IMG/VR virus record: IMGVR_UViG_3300006737_000214
Span: 1-23,816 of that record
Direction: 5' to 3' (one strand)
DNA: 23,816 bases
DNA from: a virus
Every line of letters starts with the position of its first letter. The stretch's first letter is position 1. Shown in pieces: positions 19,615-23,816 of this stretch. Made by a program: the position numbers and the translations under genes. The notes below the pieces were generated by a model, which did no database searches, had not been told where the DNA came from, and saw only the letters and a program-made list of their open reading frames with translations.

Positions 19615-20621
19615 TATTCTCTGACACCTATACATTTCATAAGAGATATAGTCTTCTTACTCAAACAGAGTTGGATGAGTATTCTGAAATGCCGTGGTTA
19701 TATACACCATTGGTTGATACACAATACAATCCTAGTACAATATCCACTGTTACCAAGCAGAATTTGAACAAAGTGCTTGATTGGCAGTACACAATGAAGT
19801 CTAGGGACACAATTAAAAATGAGTACAAGAGACTTGGTATCATCCATACAAATGAAAATGCAATAAAATCATACGTTAGTAGGTTCGATCTCTCATATGA
19901 CATACTACGTAGAGAGAAGTCACATTATATCAAAGGAACAAACACAAAACATTTGAATGATGTGTGGGAAAAAATAGAAAATGCTGTGAGTGTCAACGAA
20001 AGGGGACCAACTGGTACACGTTTGCGTGGTATGACCCATGACCAGTATGGTACAGCAAATGGTATTACTGTTGTTGCCAAGACATATGATCTATCATCAT
20101 ACAATAGTTCACTCTTATTAGAATTGAATGATTATAGCACAAGAAATAAGATGCATGTAGGTAGTCAGTTAACTATCTGTCCTGACAAGGTGATATATGA
20201 TATGGATTTGAAATATCCACGAATCATTAGTGGTATGAAACAATACGAGAAGACAGCATTTAAGGAGATGACTGGTGAGGATATGATGATGAATAAGATC
20301 AAACCATCATTCTATCAGGGTGTGAAGAGACATTTGTTTGGGTTTGATCGTTACAATTTGTTGACATCCGAGCAGAGTAATTATATAATAGATAACATCT
20401 ACCAATCAATAGGAAGACCCAGTGCTGATTTCAAAATTAACTTGCAGTATGTATTCTCTAGCGACGGTACTCTCGTTGACATTATTTGTAGCAGGATATG
20501 CTATGACAAATTCGAACACTGCGAAGAAGACAGAACATTCGTCAAAGACGAAGTAGATTTGAGAGAAACAACTATAGTATATGCTGAATACACAGAAACT
20601 GGATTAAGTTATAAAACTTGA
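19611..20621 (+). CDS. Hypothetical protein ending the late virion operon
   Basis: 336 residues, not recognised. Its ATG overlaps the stop of the preceding gene by 4 nt (ATGA). It is rich in Tyr, Lys and Asp, with no signal peptide or membrane segment. The first 120 residues look helical (TKQNLNKVLDWQYTMKSRD and similar). The middle (about 150-200) has beta strands (NGITVVAKTYDLSSYNSSLL, GSQLTICPDKVIYDM). The C-terminus (280-330) holds four Cys or His-rich positions around ICSRICYDKFEHCEED, which could be a metal site or chance. It is the last gene before a terminator-like hairpin and a promoter change. A structural or assembly role is inferred only from position. Confidence 0.72.
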   Translation: MIFSDTYTFHKRYSLLTQTELDEYSEMPWLYTPLVDTQYNPSTISTVTKQNLNKVLDWQYTMKSRDTIKNEYKRLGIIHTNENAIKSYVSRFDLSYDILRREKSHYIKGTNTKHLNDVWEKIENAVSVNERGPTGTRLRGMTHDQYGTANGITVVAKTYDLSSYNSSLLLELNDYSTRNKMHVGSQLTICPDKVIYDMDLKYPRIISGMKQYEKTAFKEMTGEDMMMNKIKPSFYQGVKRHLFGFDRYNLLTSEQSNYIIDNIYQSIGRPSADFKINLQYVFSSDGTLVDIICSRICYDKFEHCEEDRTFVKDEVDLRETTIVYAEYTETGLSYKT

Positions 20622-20636
20622 TTTTTAAGTTTTCTT
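20613..20636 (+). terminator. Weak AT-rich terminator-like hairpin
   Basis: AAAACTT (20613-20619) pairs with AAGTTTT (20627-20633) across a 7-nt loop that includes the stop codon of the upstream gene; a T-rich stretch follows. The stem has a single G-C pair, so termination strength is doubtful. It lies at the junction between the late operon and the small-gene region. Confidence 0.35.
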
Positions 20637-20643
20637 GCTTTTT

Positions 20644-20677
20644 GAAAAAGTTGAATAAATAGTTTTTTCACTTTTTC
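20644..20677. repeat. 8-bp inverted repeat enclosing a late promoter
   Basis: GAAAAAGT (20644-20651) and ACTTTTTC (20670-20677) are perfect reverse complements. The 18-nt spacer contains the AATAAATA box. An overlapping palindrome CTTTTTGAAAAAG (20638-20650) offers an alternative fold. Function unknown. Confidence 0.5.
20654..20661 (+). promoter_or_regulatory. T4-type late promoter box AATAAATA
   Basis: AATAAATA matches the NATAAATA late consensus of T4-like cyanophages. It ends 22 nt before the ATG of the 52-residue ORF, close to the 23 nt seen for the box at 14195. This gives the small downstream ORFs a late transcript separate from the fibre operon. Confidence 0.6.
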
Positions 20678-20683
20678 AGAAAA

Positions 20684-20842
20684 ATGGGATTGCCCGATAA
20701 AACACAGGAAATCTTTGATAAGGTTGTCGCATGGGATAGAAATCTCGTTTCTAAATTCCAGAAGAAGTTTAATCTAACCGATTATCAATTACTTTGTATT
20801 TCATTTGCTAAAGGATTAATAATTGGTGTTATTTTGTTGTGA
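20684..20842 (+). CDS. Small membrane-anchored protein, 52 aa
   Basis: Starts MGLPDKTQEIFDKVVAWDRN and ends in a hydrophobic segment (about residues 35-52: QLLCISFAKGLIIGVILL) that could act as a C-terminal membrane anchor. The first 34 residues are charged and helical. It lies 22 nt after a late promoter box. Its stop overlaps a GTG of a second hydrophobic mini-ORF. The arrangement (late, tiny, tail-anchored) could suit a lysis-related or inner-membrane role, but no family is recognised. Confidence 0.6.
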   Translation: MGLPDKTQEIFDKVVAWDRNLVSKFQKKFNLTDYQLLCISFAKGLIIGVILL

Positions 20843-20934
20843 TTGTTATTAATTGGGAAAATATTAGAATATTTAGTATAATGATATTATTTCTAATTTG
20901 GTTCTATTTGTTTAATGATTATATAAGAAAATGA
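20839..20934 (+). CDS. Possible 31-aa hydrophobic peptide with GTG start
   Basis: The GTG overlaps the stop of the 52-residue ORF (GTGA), and the frame runs 31 codons. The central part (IFSIMILFLIWFYLF) is a plausible single transmembrane segment followed by a basic end (YIRK). An internal ATG at 20881 would give 17 residues. No Shine-Dalgarno is evident beyond the overlap. The hydrophobic, positive-inside pattern favours a real membrane peptide, but AT-rich DNA yields such ORFs by chance. Confidence 0.35.
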   Translation: MIVINWENIRIFSIMILFLIWFYLFNDYIRK

Positions 20935-20945
20935 ATGGAAAAATG

Positions 20946-20954
20946 TGATATAAT
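20946..20954 (+). promoter_or_regulatory. Extended -10 promoter TGATATAAT
   Basis: TGA followed by a consensus TATAAT (20949-20954) forms an extended -10 element, which can work without a good -35; none is obvious. A start near 20961 would give a leader of about 36 nt for the 68-residue ORF at 20997. This is the first host-sigma-type promoter after the late operon. Confidence 0.5.
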
Positions 20955-20996
20955 ATTGATATTATGTCTCCTATATAATAAGATTTACCTCAAATT

Positions 20997-21203
20997 ATGA
21001 AAGATCAGAATACTTTAGAAGAAAATGAATCACAATTAGAGAGATGGAATCGTGCCAAAGCGATATTTATAGAGTCGCTAATTAAACCCGATAATCATCT
21101 ACGAAGTTGTGCACATAATCAGAAATGTTATAATGAATTAATGGAAATTCGTGATACTATTGTTGATTTAGCATACAATATGTCATACCCAAATAATGAT
21201 TAA
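20997..21203 (+). CDS. Hypothetical small protein, 68 aa
   Basis: Not recognised. It is charged and mostly helical (QLERWNRAKAIFIESLI, CYNELMEIRDTIVDLAYNM), with two Cys at 38 and 44 in a SCAHNQKC arrangement that could bind metal. There is no membrane segment. It sits behind an extended -10 promoter and ahead of a small membrane ORF. No Shine-Dalgarno precedes the ATG. The position among tiny sigma70-driven genes suggests an early, host-interaction-type gene; that is inference. Confidence 0.6.
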   Translation: MKDQNTLEENESQLERWNRAKAIFIESLIKPDNHLRSCAHNQKCYNELMEIRDTIVDLAYNMSYPNND

Positions 21204-21242
21204 GCAAACATTAAACATATAGATAGTTAAAAAAAGAGATCA

Positions 21243-21434
21243 ATGCTCATAACAATTGACATAGCAGCAATATTATTATTTCTCATTATTAGTGACCCTA
21301 TGTGGAGATCTATGATGAGTATTGAAGCATGGAAACAATGGAGAAAGCGAAATCGTATTCACAAGTTGCTACATACTATTGAAAAGATTGTTGATAAGTA
21401 TAATCTCAACGAGGTACACGCTAGTATAAAATAA
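21243..21434 (+). CDS. Small single-span membrane protein, 63 aa
   Basis: Residues 3-17 (ITIDIAAILLFLIIS) form one hydrophobic span at the N-terminus, followed by a strongly basic cytoplasmic-type segment (EAWKQWRKRNRIHKLLHTIE). It is preceded by a weak AAGAGA ribosome site. Its stop overlaps the next ATG (TAATG), so the two are probably coupled. Unrecognised; likely an inner-membrane protein with a basic tail. Confidence 0.6.
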   Translation: MLITIDIAAILLFLIISDPMWRSMMSIEAWKQWRKRNRIHKLLHTIEKIVDKYNLNEVHASIK

Positions 21435-21595
21435 TGCAAAATTACGACATGTTGGTTGATAATATCAACCAGAAATTGTATGAAGTTTACAGTATGGGTC
21501 ACACTCTAGGTGAGAGTGACTGGGATGATGATTCAGCAAGTACAATATCATCTAACATAATAGAATTAGTAGAAGAATATTATACTACACGCTAA
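21434..21595 (+). CDS. Hypothetical acidic small protein, 53 aa
   Basis: It begins MQNYDMLVDNINQKLYEVYS and ends IIELVEEYYTTR. It is translationally coupled to the membrane ORF by a one-base TAATG overlap. It is acidic (GESDWDDD near the middle) and helical at both ends, with no Cys. A consensus promoter starts at the base after its stop codon, so it ends its transcription unit. No family is recognised. Confidence 0.5.
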   Translation: MQNYDMLVDNINQKLYEVYSMGHTLGESDWDDDSASTISSNIIELVEEYYTTR

Positions 21596-21624
21596 TTGAC
21601 ATCAATGTGAATTGATGGTATAAT
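21596..21624 (+). promoter_or_regulatory. Consensus-perfect sigma70 promoter
   Basis: TTGACA (21596-21601), a 17-nt spacer and TATAAT (21619-21624) match the bacterial consensus exactly, and TGG just before the -10 adds an extended element. The predicted start is about 21631, with a leader of about 17 nt before the ATG at 21648. This should be among the strongest host-polymerase promoters in the genome and typical of an immediate-early gene. Confidence 0.85.
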
Positions 21625-21647
21625 ATTATATAATTAAAATATATCTA

Positions 21648-21884
21648 ATGGCACTATCAGAACAAGTTGAGACCTCATTAAGAGAGGCACAAGAGAGTTT
21701 AAGAAATGCGTTAGCGTTTGCTGCCAGATCCGAGAAACCATATATTAACATGCACATTGGTAAAATGATGCACAACATAGACAATCTGATAAGTGTCCAT
21801 GATCTACTTGAAACTATGGAGAACAGAGAAGAAGGCAGTTCAGGACGTTTTGGGTGGAAACTAGGTGATGACATTATTGATTAA
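21648..21884 (+). CDS. Hypothetical early protein, 78 aa
   Basis: Driven by a consensus-perfect sigma70 promoter, so it is probably strongly expressed right after infection. It is almost wholly helical: ALSEQVETSLREAQESLRNA, then INMHIGKMMHNIDNLISVHD, then a charged loop (ENREEGSSGR) and a short acidic tail. Heptad-like Leu/Ile spacing suggests a helical hairpin or dimer. There are no Cys and no membrane span. No Shine-Dalgarno is visible. Unrecognised. Expression timing and a small helical build fit a host-takeover protein, but nothing in the sequence names a target. Confidence 0.65.
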   Translation: MALSEQVETSLREAQESLRNALAFAARSEKPYINMHIGKMMHNIDNLISVHDLLETMENREEGSSGRFGWKLGDDIID

Positions 21885-21887
21885 TTG

Positions 21888-21901
21888 TTAAGATTTCTTA
21901 A
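21888..21901. repeat. Short palindrome TTAAGA-TT-TCTTAA
   Basis: A perfect 6-bp inverted repeat with a 2-nt centre, just after the stop of the 78-residue gene and upstream of an extended -10 box. It could be an operator or a weak hairpin; it may be chance in AT-rich DNA. Confidence 0.3.
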
Positions 21902-21917
21902 TAAAACACAATAAGTA

Positions 21918-21926
21918 TGATAAAAT
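21918..21926 (+). promoter_or_regulatory. Extended -10 promoter TGATAAAAT
   Basis: TGA followed by TAAAAT (21921-21926), with a weak -35 candidate. A start near 21933 would leave about 20 nt before the ATG at 21953, including an AAAGGTG ribosome site. Confidence 0.45.
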
Positions 21927-21952
21927 AGTATTGTACTTCAAAGGTGTTCATT

Positions 21953-22078
21953 ATGACTTGGGAAGAATATATTGCTAACGAGTTAAAATATTATGATGAG
22001 CATCCTGATGAAGATGACAGTATTATAGAGGCACATGCTTGTAGTATGGTCATGCTGGAATATGAGTATGCTGATTAG
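21953..22078 (+). CDS. Hypothetical acidic mini-protein, 41 aa
   Basis: It begins MTWEEYIANELKYYDEHPDE and ends in MVMLEYEYAD. It is strongly acidic with few basic residues, helical at both ends, and has one Cys. A plausible Shine-Dalgarno (AAAGGTG) lies 8 nt before the ATG and an extended -10 about 27 nt before it. It is followed at once by a hairpin repeat and a terminator-like structure, so it forms a single-gene unit. Function unknown. Confidence 0.5.
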   Translation: MTWEEYIANELKYYDEHPDEDDSIIEAHACSMVMLEYEYAD

Positions 22079-22100
22079 GACAGTCAACAAAGTGTCCACC
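22078..22100 (+). repeat. 3'-end hairpin repeat, copy 1
   Basis: GGACAGTCAACAAAGTGTCC, then ACC, begins at the last base of the stop codon of the 41-residue ORF. GGACA pairs with TGTCC. It aligns with copies at 22413 and 22725 (consensus ACAGTTCACAAASTGTCCACC). Confidence 0.6.
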
Positions 22101-22122
22101 ATTTCACCCAATGGTCATTTTT
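22098..22122 (+). terminator. Rho-independent terminator-like hairpin
   Basis: ACCATT (22098-22103) pairs with AATGGT (22110-22115) over a 6-nt loop, followed by CATTTTT. The T-run leads straight into the extended -10 box TGCTATATT. Confidence 0.5.
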
Positions 22123-22124
22123 GT

Positions 22125-22133
22125 TGCTATATT
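22125..22133 (+). promoter_or_regulatory. Extended -10 box TGCTATATT
   Basis: TGC followed by TATATT (22128-22133). The predicted start is about 22140, exactly where the first folded RNA begins. The same TGCTAT arrangement after a T-run recurs at 22459. No convincing -35. Confidence 0.45.
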
Positions 22134-22139
22134 AAAAGG

Positions 22140-22205
22140 GTGGAAGAGATACTACAGGGTAACGCCAGCAATGCTGGTCAGATCGATCTGTGACCCATCT
22201 TCCAC
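22140..22205 (+). ncRNA. Structured leader RNA 1 (branched fold), upstream of a 59-aa ORF
   Basis: GTGGAAGA (22140-22147) and TCTTCCAC (22198-22205) form a perfect 8-bp closing stem. Inside, GGGT (22157-22160) pairs with ACCC (22193-22196) and encloses two hairpins: CCAGC-AAT-GCTGG (22065+100, i.e. 22165-22177) and CAGA-TCGA-TCTG (22179-22190), the latter part of a 12-nt palindrome. The fold starts about 7 nt after a -10 box and ends 23 nt before the ATG at 22229. An alternative pairing GGGTG (22138-22142) with CACCC (22210-22214) would compete with the closing stem, as in switch-type leaders. It is not a tRNA. A riboswitch or other cis-regulatory leader, or a small RNA, is possible. Confidence 0.55.
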
Positions 22206-22228
22206 AATTCACCCTATAATAGGCATCT

Positions 22229-22408
22229 ATGTCATTTTTCAATCACGTTCAACTCCATGACTATGACATCACTGACGCTGGTATTACCAGTGCTTGCTAT
22301 GATGAATTGGTTGCTGACGGTAACAATTCTGATCCAAAGCAGTTAGAAATCCTAGCAAGAGCAATGTGTGAAGAGTTCAAGGATTACATGCGTCCATTGT
22401 TCAACTAG
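22229..22408 (+). CDS. Hypothetical small protein, 59 aa, behind folded leader
   Basis: It begins MSFFNHVQLHDYDITDAGIT and ends in FKDYMRPLFN. It is mildly acidic with two Cys (23 and 46) and a helical second half. The ATG is preceded by AGGCATCT, nearly the same as AGGCATCC before the ORF at 22495, so the two genes share their translation start region. Its 5' leader holds structured RNA 1. It is followed by hairpin repeat copy 2 and a strong terminator. The coding strand uses more C- and G-ending codons than the virion genes. No family is recognised. Confidence 0.6.
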   Translation: MSFFNHVQLHDYDITDAGITSACYDELVADGNNSDPKQLEILARAMCEEFKDYMRPLFN

Positions 22409-22412
22409 ATGT

Positions 22413-22433
22413 GACAGTTCACAAACTGTCCAC
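22413..22433 (+). repeat. 3'-end hairpin repeat, copy 2
   Basis: GACAGTT (22413-22419), loop CACA and AACTGTC (22424-22430) make a perfect 7-bp hairpin, followed by CACC. It lies 4 nt after a stop codon and aligns with copies at 22078 and 22725. Confidence 0.65.
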
Positions 22434-22434
22434 C

Positions 22435-22459
22435 AAATCCCCCACAGTGGGGATTTTTT
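22435..22459 (+). terminator. Strong rho-independent terminator
   Basis: AAATCCCC (22435-22442) pairs with GGGGATTT (22449-22456) over the loop CACAGT, and the T-run extends to 22459. It ends the 59-residue gene and is the best terminator in the window. Its T-run overlaps the next extended -10. Confidence 0.8.
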
Positions 22460-22467
22460 GCTATTAT
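22459..22467 (+). promoter_or_regulatory. Extended -10 box TGCTATTAT
   Basis: TGC followed by TATTAT (22462-22467), directly on the terminator's T-run. A start near 22474 gives a leader of about 21 nt with GAGG before the ATG at 22495. It parallels the box at 22125. Confidence 0.5.
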
Positions 22468-22494
22468 TAAAGAGTCAAACAAATCGAGGCATCC

Positions 22495-22746
22495 ATGCTT
22501 TTTGAAATCATTCAGGACAATGTGGACTATATGTTCACCAATGGTTATGAGGATGAGATAGGCACAAGTGATGTATCAATTTGCGTCAACCGTATCATTG
22601 AGGAGTACGCTCCATACACTGAACAGTTTGCGAGTACACCGACTCGTCAGGTCATCCGTAGAGTGGTAAACAATTGTATTGCCACCTTAAATGATCTGCA
22701 CATGACACAGAGGTTAGAGTATGCCACTTCACAAAGTGTCCACTAA
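22495..22746 (+). CDS. Hypothetical small protein, 83 aa
   Basis: It begins MLFEIIQDNVDYMFTNGYED; the middle is helical (RIIEEYAPYTEQF, RQVIRRVVNNCIATLNDLHM). A GAGG ribosome site lies 5 nt before the ATG in an AGGCATCC context shared with the 59-residue gene. The last eight codons (ATSQSVH and stop) lie in hairpin repeat copy 3, so the present C-terminus is made from repeat sequence; the ancestral gene may have ended earlier. No membrane span. Codon use is richer in C and G than in the structural genes. Unrecognised. Confidence 0.65.
   Translation: MLFEIIQDNVDYMFTNGYEDEIGTSDVSICVNRIIEEYAPYTEQFASTPTRQVIRRVVNNCIATLNDLHMTQRLEYATSQSVH
22725..22743 (+). repeat. 3'-end hairpin repeat, copy 3, inside a coding end
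   Basis: CACTT (22725-22729), loop CACA and AAGTG (22734-22738), followed by TCCACT. It has the same loop as copy 2. It overlaps the last codons of the 83-residue ORF, unlike copies 1 and 2, which start at or just after a stop. Confidence 0.6.
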
Positions 22747-22753
22747 TCTCCCC

Positions 22754-22777
22754 ACTATACTCAATCTGATGTATAGT
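22754..22777 (+). promoter_or_regulatory. Hairpin carrying a possible -10 (TATAGT)
   Basis: ACTATAC (22754-22760) and GTATAGT (22771-22777) form a perfect 7-bp inverted repeat with a 10-nt loop. No T-run follows. The right arm contains TATAGT (22772-22777), whose predicted start (about 22784) is where folded RNA 2 begins. It could be an operator, a promoter or both. Confidence 0.4.
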
Positions 22778-22783
22778 ACATAT

Positions 22784-22885
22784 TGTTGAGGGATCACTAG
22801 GTTTCTGACTAGACTAACAATTCCATTTTTGGTGAGAAGTAGTCACATGATGTCAGAGTAATTTACTTACCCTAGTCTCTTAACA
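22784..22885 (+). ncRNA. Structured leader RNA 2, upstream of a 35-aa ORF
   Basis: Bases 22784-22801 pair with 22871-22885: ten pairs (TGTTGAGGGA with TCTCTTAACA, two of them G-U), a 3-nt bulge TCA, then five more (CTAGG with CCTAG). Inside, TCTGAC (22804-22809) can pair with GTCAGA (22852-22857), or, exclusively, TGACTA (22806-22811) with TAGTCA (22840-22845); these two stems share bases and so are alternative folds. A small CCA-TTTT-TGG hairpin sits in the centre. The element ends 30 nt before the ATG at 22916. The mutually exclusive stems fit a switching leader; a trans-acting RNA is also possible. Confidence 0.55.
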
Positions 22886-22915
22886 CACTGTAAACCATTT
22901 ACCTACTTTTTTAAA

Positions 22916-23023
22916 ATGACTGTTGAAACAAATTATGCAACTCTACTTGAGACTTTTGCTGATTGTGAGACTGGAAATGACATTCTAGCAGTGCTAGAGG
23001 TGTTAGTCCAGAGAGTAGGTTAG
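22916..23023 (+). CDS. Hypothetical 35-aa peptide behind folded leader
   Basis: It begins MTVETNYATLLETFADCETG and ends in LAVLEVLVQRVG. It is acidic in the first half and hydrophobic-helical at the end. It is preceded by a T-rich leader without a clear Shine-Dalgarno. It lies between structured RNAs 2 and 3, and its first codons (ATGAC...ACA) and leader resemble those of the ardA-like gene at 23149. It is too short for homology judgement; the folded leader argues it is a real, regulated peptide. Confidence 0.45.
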   Translation: MTVETNYATLLETFADCETGNDILAVLEVLVQRVG

Positions 23024-23034
23024 TTTACATAACA

Positions 23035-23116
23035 TAGTGGGCATGAGTTAGTACCTTTAATTATACTGGCACGACTGGTTAGGATAGGGTGAAGCACCTC
23101 TTGACCATGCCCACTA
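23035..23116 (+). ncRNA. Structured leader RNA 3, upstream of ardA-like gene
   Basis: TAGTGGGCATG (23035-23045) and CATGCCCACTA (23106-23116) form a perfect 11-bp closing stem, the strongest in the window. Inside, AGTA (23050-23053) can pair with TACT (23064-23067), and GGTG-AAG-CACC (23088-23098) forms a tight hairpin, possibly extended by GGTTA (23077-23081) with TTGACC (23101-23106). The element ends 32 nt before the ATG of the ardA-like gene and starts 12 nt after the previous stop. No good -10 precedes it. It may be a regulatory leader of ardA, a processing site or a stable small RNA. Confidence 0.55.
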
Positions 23117-23148
23117 CTTTACTTTTAACCCACTGATTTTTCTTTATT

Positions 23149-23607
23149 ATGACCACTTCGACACCCGTACACCCAGTGACAAAAGAATCTTTAAAACCTG
23201 CAACGGTTGAGCATATAGAAGAAATAATTGAAGATAGTCTTATTAATGACTTCGATTGGGATAAAGCACTTGACTTTATCGACAAATATGGTGAGCATAA
23301 AGTAGAATATATTGAGGACTATTGGCAAGCAATTGGTGACATCTATACTACTGAAGGAACTGAACAAGAGGCAGTAGATTTATGGTGTGAGAATAATTAT
23401 GTAGAGAATGTAGAGAATTGTGCTGAAGCATATTATGGATACTATGAAGGTGTGGAAGAGTTTGTACAAGAATACCTAGACTCCAGTGGAGATGATATTC
23501 CATCATGGGTTTGTATAGATTATCAAAGAACATGGGATAGTGGACTAGGATATGATTTTGAAGAGATAGAATTTAATCATGGTGTACATATATGGAGGAA
23601 CTTTTAA
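23149..23607 (+). CDS. ardA: ArdA-like antirestriction protein (DNA mimic)
   Basis: 152 residues with 37 Asp/Glu against 7 Lys/Arg, the charge profile of a DNA mimic. The C-terminal part (about 92-152: AEAYYGYYEGVEEFVQEYLD, IPSWVCIDYQRTWDSGLGYD, HGVHIWRNF) follows the ArdA C-terminal domain pattern (EAFxGxYxSxExFAxEYLxE...YIDYxxxxRDL...VFR). The middle (about 35-90) resembles the ArdA central domain. Typical ArdA is about 165-170 residues; here the N-terminal beta domain (YxAYNNGxLxGxWxDL) is missing or replaced by a short Pro/Thr-rich stretch. ArdA binds type I restriction-modification enzymes in place of DNA, so this would protect incoming phage DNA. It is preceded by structured RNA 3 and coupled to the next ORF. 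Confidence 0.75.
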   Translation: MTTSTPVHPVTKESLKPATVEHIEEIIEDSLINDFDWDKALDFIDKYGEHKVEYIEDYWQAIGDIYTTEGTEQEAVDLWCENNYVENVENCAEAYYGYYEGVEEFVQEYLDSSGDDIPSWVCIDYQRTWDSGLGYDFEEIEFNHGVHIWRNF

Positions 23608-23816
23608 TGTCTTTCATAAGAAACGCTAATTCTGATGCAACTAATAGTGAATTAGATGCAAAGCAAGTCATATTTAATGACTATAAATTTGCTGATGAGA
23701 TAGATGATCCATTGGATAATATTACACAAGAAATTAAAGAACAAGTAATTGAACAGTATGTTGAGTTAGTTGTTGACGGTATGGATATGAAAACTCTTGT
23801 TGCTTATGCAACAGAT
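23607..23816 (+). CDS. Hypothetical protein coupled to ardA (3' partial)
   Basis: The ATG overlaps the ardA stop by one base (TAATG), with a strong GGAGGA site 7 nt upstream inside ardA. Seventy codons are open to the window edge. It begins MSFIRNANSDATNSELDAKQ and is acidic and helical (ITQEIKEQVIEQYVELVVDG). It may work with ArdA or be another small early protein; no family is recognised from the visible part. Confidence 0.65.
   Translation, partial: MSFIRNANSDATNSELDAKQVIFNDYKFADEIDDPLDNITQEIKEQVIEQYVELVVDGMDMKTLVAYATD

Follow-up and report, generated by a model that had tools for sequence, protein, structure and literature searches.

Interchangeable RNA modules nested at predicted transcript starts of marine cyanophages, with a possible role in 5'-end protection

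The locus and the fold of RNA 2

The window, that is the whole stretch of 23,816 nucleotides analysed here, is a 23.8-kb virus record with tail-fibre and virion genes in its left part and a 97% match to the single-cell cyanophage MH319765 at its right end, and these two features indicate a T4-like cyanophage, of the Kyanoviridae, as its source. Behind the tail genes lies a region where ORFs are short and gaps long, and it is there that the structured element RNA 2 is found (Table 1); no tRNA or tmRNA was detected in the window. The initial annotation had described RNA 2 as a leader ahead of a 35-codon ORF, a placement that is supported here; this ORF belongs to a recurrent family of phage proteins of 33-42 amino acids. 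Members share the pattern ..LLENAE...ELLAVIDxYV.., include PSSM2_071, have a copy in P-SSM2 at 56933-57061 and are without a match in Pfam.

Table 1. Features of the RNA 2 locus, with positions in the window, and modules carried in the loop of module D
Feature	Sequence	Position	Strand	Remarks
Palindrome-like box	CCACTTCACAAAGTGTCCAC	22724..22743	+	Some 28-30 nt ahead of the -10; same context in relatives
Predicted -10	TATAGT	22772..22777	+	Relatives have TATTAT/TATAAT at the aligned place; predicted +1 (22784) lies 7 bases behind its end
P1, 5' arm		22784..22793	+	First base is the predicted +1
P2, 5' arm	CTAGG	22797..22801	+	Behind the 3-nt bulge; 110 distinct flank pairs show outer pairing
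P3, 5' arm (module D)	TCTGAC	22804..22809	+	Covariation
Joint P3 to P4	UA	22810..22811	+	Invariant in the alignment of relatives
P4, 5' arm	GACTA	22812..22816	+	Minimum-energy fold and covariation; overlooked in the initial annotation
AC, small hairpin, GAAG	AC + CCATTTTTGG + GAAG	22817..22839	+	Site occupied by other RNA modules in relatives
P4, 3' arm	TAGTC	22840..22844	+	Covariation
Conserved linker P4' to P3'	ACAUGAY	22845..22851	+	ACATGAC/ACATGAT in 99/119
P3, 3' arm	GTCAGA	22852..22857	+	Covariation
3' linker of RNA 2's outer type	GTAATTTACTTAC	22858..22870	+	Found in relatives
P2, 3' arm	CCTAG	22871..22875	+	Fold
P1, 3' arm		22876..22885	+	Fold
35-codon ORF	MTVETNYATLLETFADCETGNDILAVLEVLVQRVG	22916..23023	+	33-42 aa family; AT-rich 30-nt gap from RNA 2
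RNA 3 (module C holding module B)		23036..23115	+	Module C lies inside module D in other phages
Module B	UUAAUUAGACU..AGUUAGGAUA			In module D loop
Module C	UUAGUACC..GGUGAAGCACCUCUUGA			In module D loop
Module E	GGUUGUCUCUGUUCAGCAGAGAAAUUACGUCC			In module D loop
AGGC type	AGGC..UAAGUCCU			In module D loop
Module F	GGUGUAAGCGAUUCCC..			In module D loop

The 15-bp outer stem that had been described for RNA 2, formed by P1 and P2, was recovered by folding together with its 3-nt bulge and G-U pairs, and the inner stem TCTGAC/GTCAGA (P3) was found where it had been drawn. A second inner stem, TGACTA/TAGTCA, had been proposed to exclude the first. TGACTA (22806-22811) does overlap TCTGAC at 22806-22809, but the better partner of TAGTC is the neighbouring GACTA, and since this pairing (P4) is compatible with P3 the two inner stems coexist, both being present in the minimum-energy fold; the idea that only one of them can form therefore had to be given up. 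The inner layout thus reads P3-UA-P4-AC-(loop)-GAAG-P4'-ACAUGAY-P3', in which the internal-loop modules are conserved and the helix letters vary freely. The folding energy of RNA 2 is no better than chance (z = -1.08; 24/200 shuffles fold equally well).

Covariation and nesting in relatives

The fold of RNA 2 is real, and viruses of marine cyanobacteria conserve it. The first relatives, in 18 IMG/VR contigs, came from an exact search for 18 bases at the 3' linker of RNA 2, and additional patterns raised the number of instances of the inner element, module D, in T4-like marine cyanophage contigs to 119; the counts are those of the pattern search because the covariance model R1, applied to whole records, failed to find copies whose loops carry long inserts. 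In 31 distinct cores, from which loop inserts were removed, one bulged base was dropped in seven rows and rows were hand-trimmed along the fold, P3 and P4 are 98.5% paired as against 81.6% after shuffling, with double-sided changes in 10 of the 11 pairs. None of 500 shuffles reached any of the five measures, and slid controls gave 28-46%; the variety of P4 is underestimated, since one search for relatives fixed its commonest arm. The outer helices fall into several types that differ in their letters (GTTGAGAG..CTCTCAAC, GGAAAACAAACGAGG..CCTCAGTTTTGTTTTCC and GAAACAGTTACGGG..CCCGTAATGTTTC), and across 110 distinct flank pairs their mean pairing energy is -23.1 kcal/mol, versus -14.1 kcal/mol with dinucleotide-shuffled 3' flanks (median z -3.27). 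The compensatory changes in P3/P4 and the outer-flank pairing show that a paired stem is maintained by selection, as had been suggested from the G-U pairs and the bulge of the outer stem. The exclusive stem TGACTA/TAGTCA was rejected, being 50.0% paired in relatives and 48.8% after shuffling; complementarity is thus kept in relatives for P3, but for the alternative stem it does not exceed that of shuffles.

Module D is also present in the isolate P-SSM2, unannotated, at 55824-55966, and in Synechococcus phages S-SSM4 and S-SSM6b, so that it is not an artefact of assembly. Comparison with Rfam returned no match at gathering score in the window or in 137 kb of relatives, none at E<=1 in 36.8 kb of sequence, and only chance-level matches outside RNA 2 in the 20600-23816 region (E 5.9 and 7). 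RNA 2 and its module set lie outside Rfam; the literature covered comprised open-access papers, so an earlier description elsewhere is possible.

The apical site of module D, between AC and GAAG, differs among relatives: it may be empty (AC-UUA-GAAG), hold a small hairpin like that of the window, or hold entire other modules. Module B was found directly in D 25 times, E in D 11 times and C in D 8 times; B within C within D and F in D were each seen 6 times, and the reverse arrangement, D in F, 5 times. The loop of module C itself holds B, E or a third insert, and some leaders hold modules in tandem. Module C, which has an unannotated copy in P-SSM2 at 56829-56910, was tested for covariation along with D, these two modules being the scope of the tests: its helix is 98.7% paired, with 27 double-sided cells and a shuffle result of 0/500. 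It also keeps invariant U-G and G-U pairs in the helix, and because these would be A-C mismatches on the opposite strand it is the RNA of one strand that is selected. A bacterial origin of the modules was considered and rejected, an exact match to the module C pattern being absent from 84,980 bacterial and archaeal genomes.

Predicted transcription starts

Relatives of RNA 2 carry a -10-like TATTAT, TATAAT or TATAGT, then six bases, then the outer stem. On the strength of this motif and of the pairing profile, transcription of RNA 2 is predicted to start at 22784, although a generic promoter scan did not call its TATAGT. At 41 TATTATATAAR sites, mean pairing probability is 0.35-0.64 at positions -6 to -1 versus 0.76-0.90 at +1 to +6, and a similar jump at the predicted +1 is seen in a second promoter class (AAAGTGTCCTTATA followed by GTG). 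Pairing of +1 to +4 with the 3' flank was recorded for 40/73 module-D leaders of class A and 15/19 of class B; in class A the rise in pairing is spread over 0 to +2, and 33/73 leaders lack this pairing. The simplest leaders are a bare hairpin at +1 (GTTGAGGGAACTCAAC, GTGTAGGATACAC), and the larger ones look as if they had grown inside the loop of such a hairpin. RNA 1 (22128-22205) is similarly placed, with TATATT followed by a hairpin whose first stem base is the predicted +1, 22140; the region also has promoters whose leaders lack such structure, for example ahead of the ORF at 22495. When minimal hairpins were sought freely behind -10 motifs, most of what came back was coding noise, and the result was left unused.

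Several further features were noted around these starts. A degenerate palindrome occurs at 22079-22100, 22406-22433 and 22724-22743 (best copy GACAGTTCACAAACTGTCCACC), some 28-30 nt upstream of three -10-like elements, and is likely an activator or promoter box. The T4-like contig L122 (G003), which carries the T4 capsid gene gp23, repeats AACTGGTACGTCTAAACTGTCCTTATA followed by GTG at 1702, 3020, 4340, 6104 and 7924; in most of these second-class promoters the hairpin begins at the G. A T7-type polymerase (PF00940) was sought as reader of the second class in G003 and other contigs with no match, a control search being equally matchless. Another element, CGAGGAGATGGATGTGCCTCTCGGTTCGCAACCGAAGAAAGAACTAACATCC, stands directly ahead of start codons in P-SSM2 (about 56,040-56,095; L111 16038-16095) and in L003 (6448-6500); it resembles an H-type pseudoknot spanning GAGGAG, and in L003 it has no Rfam match.

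Proposed role and relation to known systems

The anatomy of the leader is well supported. As to its function, the preferred reading, to which a probability of roughly 0.45 is given, is that RNA 2 forms the 5' terminus of an mRNA as a leader of modular build, and that the closure of this end guards the message against decay of the RNase E type. With the outer stem beginning where transcription is predicted to start, the mRNA would have a base-paired 5' terminus and might be shielded from 5'-end-dependent decay, whether by RNase E with a 5'-pyrophosphate-removing helper or by RNase J, and the unstructured AT-rich stretch of some 30 nt behind the stem would keep the ribosome-entry region open ahead of the ORF. 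In E. coli, RNase E-dependent decay is slower when the 5' end is base-paired (Emory 1992, Bouvet and Belasco 1992; listed in PMC3997798). Infection with cyanophage P-SSP7 raises the RNase E of the host, and protection of the phage's own transcripts by antisense RNAs has been proposed (PMC9692554); a 5' end closed in cis may serve the same purpose.

Plain 5' protection needs no invariant internal loops, which makes a second function likely. In module D the letters of C-UA, AC, the AA of GAAG and ACAUGAY are invariant or nearly so while the helices change, and module C has 27 invariant columns. A protein may bind to these loops, or they may keep the RNA in a compact tertiary fold; a loop-bound partner, like message protection, is put forward as a proposal. 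The same invariance is what would be expected of a protein-binding operator or processing signal, at which an RNase or an RNA-binding protein, from phage or host, docks and controls translation or cuts the leader, and T4 has leader operators of similar kind for gp32 and gp43 (PMC3014915). On this account, however, each of several unrelated modules would require its own partner, and the ribosome-entry region lies outside the structure; it is considered rather unlikely, with about a one-in-four chance in its favour.

The genes behind the leaders bear on a further possibility, that of a ligand-responsive riboswitch or an attenuator, which the initial annotation had favoured and which might be suggested by the structure of the leader, its conserved unpaired bases and its place ahead of ORFs. 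Module D leaders precede at least four unrelated ORF families, with P3' often about 50-70 nt from the start codon. Association with the genes of one pathway, as for a riboswitch, was therefore not found, and the use of the same RNA before unrelated families is unlike a ligand-specific leader. In addition, the second stem on which a two-state switch would depend is not conserved as drawn, a terminator-like site is absent between 22784 and 22916, and the apical loop tolerates arbitrary inserts, all of which leaves this explanation improbable. As a separate observation, leaders also stand before the conserved protein MATRSRIGLQL..LSVYHHWDGYPEWLGVTL (T4-GC 66 in P-SSM2) and before lysine/arginine-rich, histone-like small proteins (L156, L163, L182 and others).

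Release of a stand-alone small RNA or RNA decoy from the leader would account for compact folds close to a promoter and for tandem modules in a single leader, but the window holds no terminator right behind RNA 2 and the ORF follows at a regular short distance, so that this too appears improbable. Least probable are selfish mobile hairpins of MITE or REP type inserting into one another as DNA: identical modules across many hosts and positions, reciprocal nesting and a site known both empty and filled are what they would produce, but inspection by eye showed no target-site duplication, the loop that is empty in some relatives (AC-UUA-GAAG) being replaced rather than duplicated, the strand-specific U-G/G-U pairs of module C point to selection on one RNA strand, and module position is linked to promoters and to a short distance from ORFs.

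With similar reserve and somewhat short of even odds, it can also be proposed that T4-like cyanophages assemble the leaders of a cluster of small-ORF transcripts from a common stock of interchangeable modules nesting in any order, forming a combinatorial system that guards phage mRNA or recruits a factor during infection. This wider finding of nested modules at predicted cyanophage transcript starts outweighs the original observation in interest; it concerns several unlisted RNA modules, in more than 100 cyanophage contigs, that nest reciprocally at these starts. If protective, they would bear directly on how the transcripts of cyanophages are spared when host RNase E rises during infection, for which antisense RNA has been the proposal so far. 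They would also supply 5' elements that can be carried over to other messages, and RNA catalogues would gain several new families.

A structured leader is typically a lone element that belongs to one gene. The 5' stabilising stem-loops of the E. coli ompA/papA type resemble the predicted layout of RNA 2 in that a stem at or beside the first base is followed by a single-stranded ribosome-entry region, and they differ from it in that the terminal-stem loop of RNA 2 holds large, conserved, mutually nesting modules and that stabilisation by RNA 2 is a prediction. The leader of phage T7 gene 10 also has a 5'-terminal stabilising stem-loop. Among T4-like cyanophages, the wcaG, manA and PhotoRC-II RNAs and the glutamine riboswitch are likewise structured leaders, but these already have catalogue entries as families and go with genes of metabolism or photosynthesis (PMC2864571, PMC9602691), whereas RNA 2 belongs to no Rfam family and precedes small phage ORFs of unknown function. 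The gene 32 pseudoknot and gene 43 hairpin operators of T4 (PMC3014915) are again leader structures of T4-like phages; each of them serves one gene, in contrast to the RNA 2 module, which is found before many unrelated genes.
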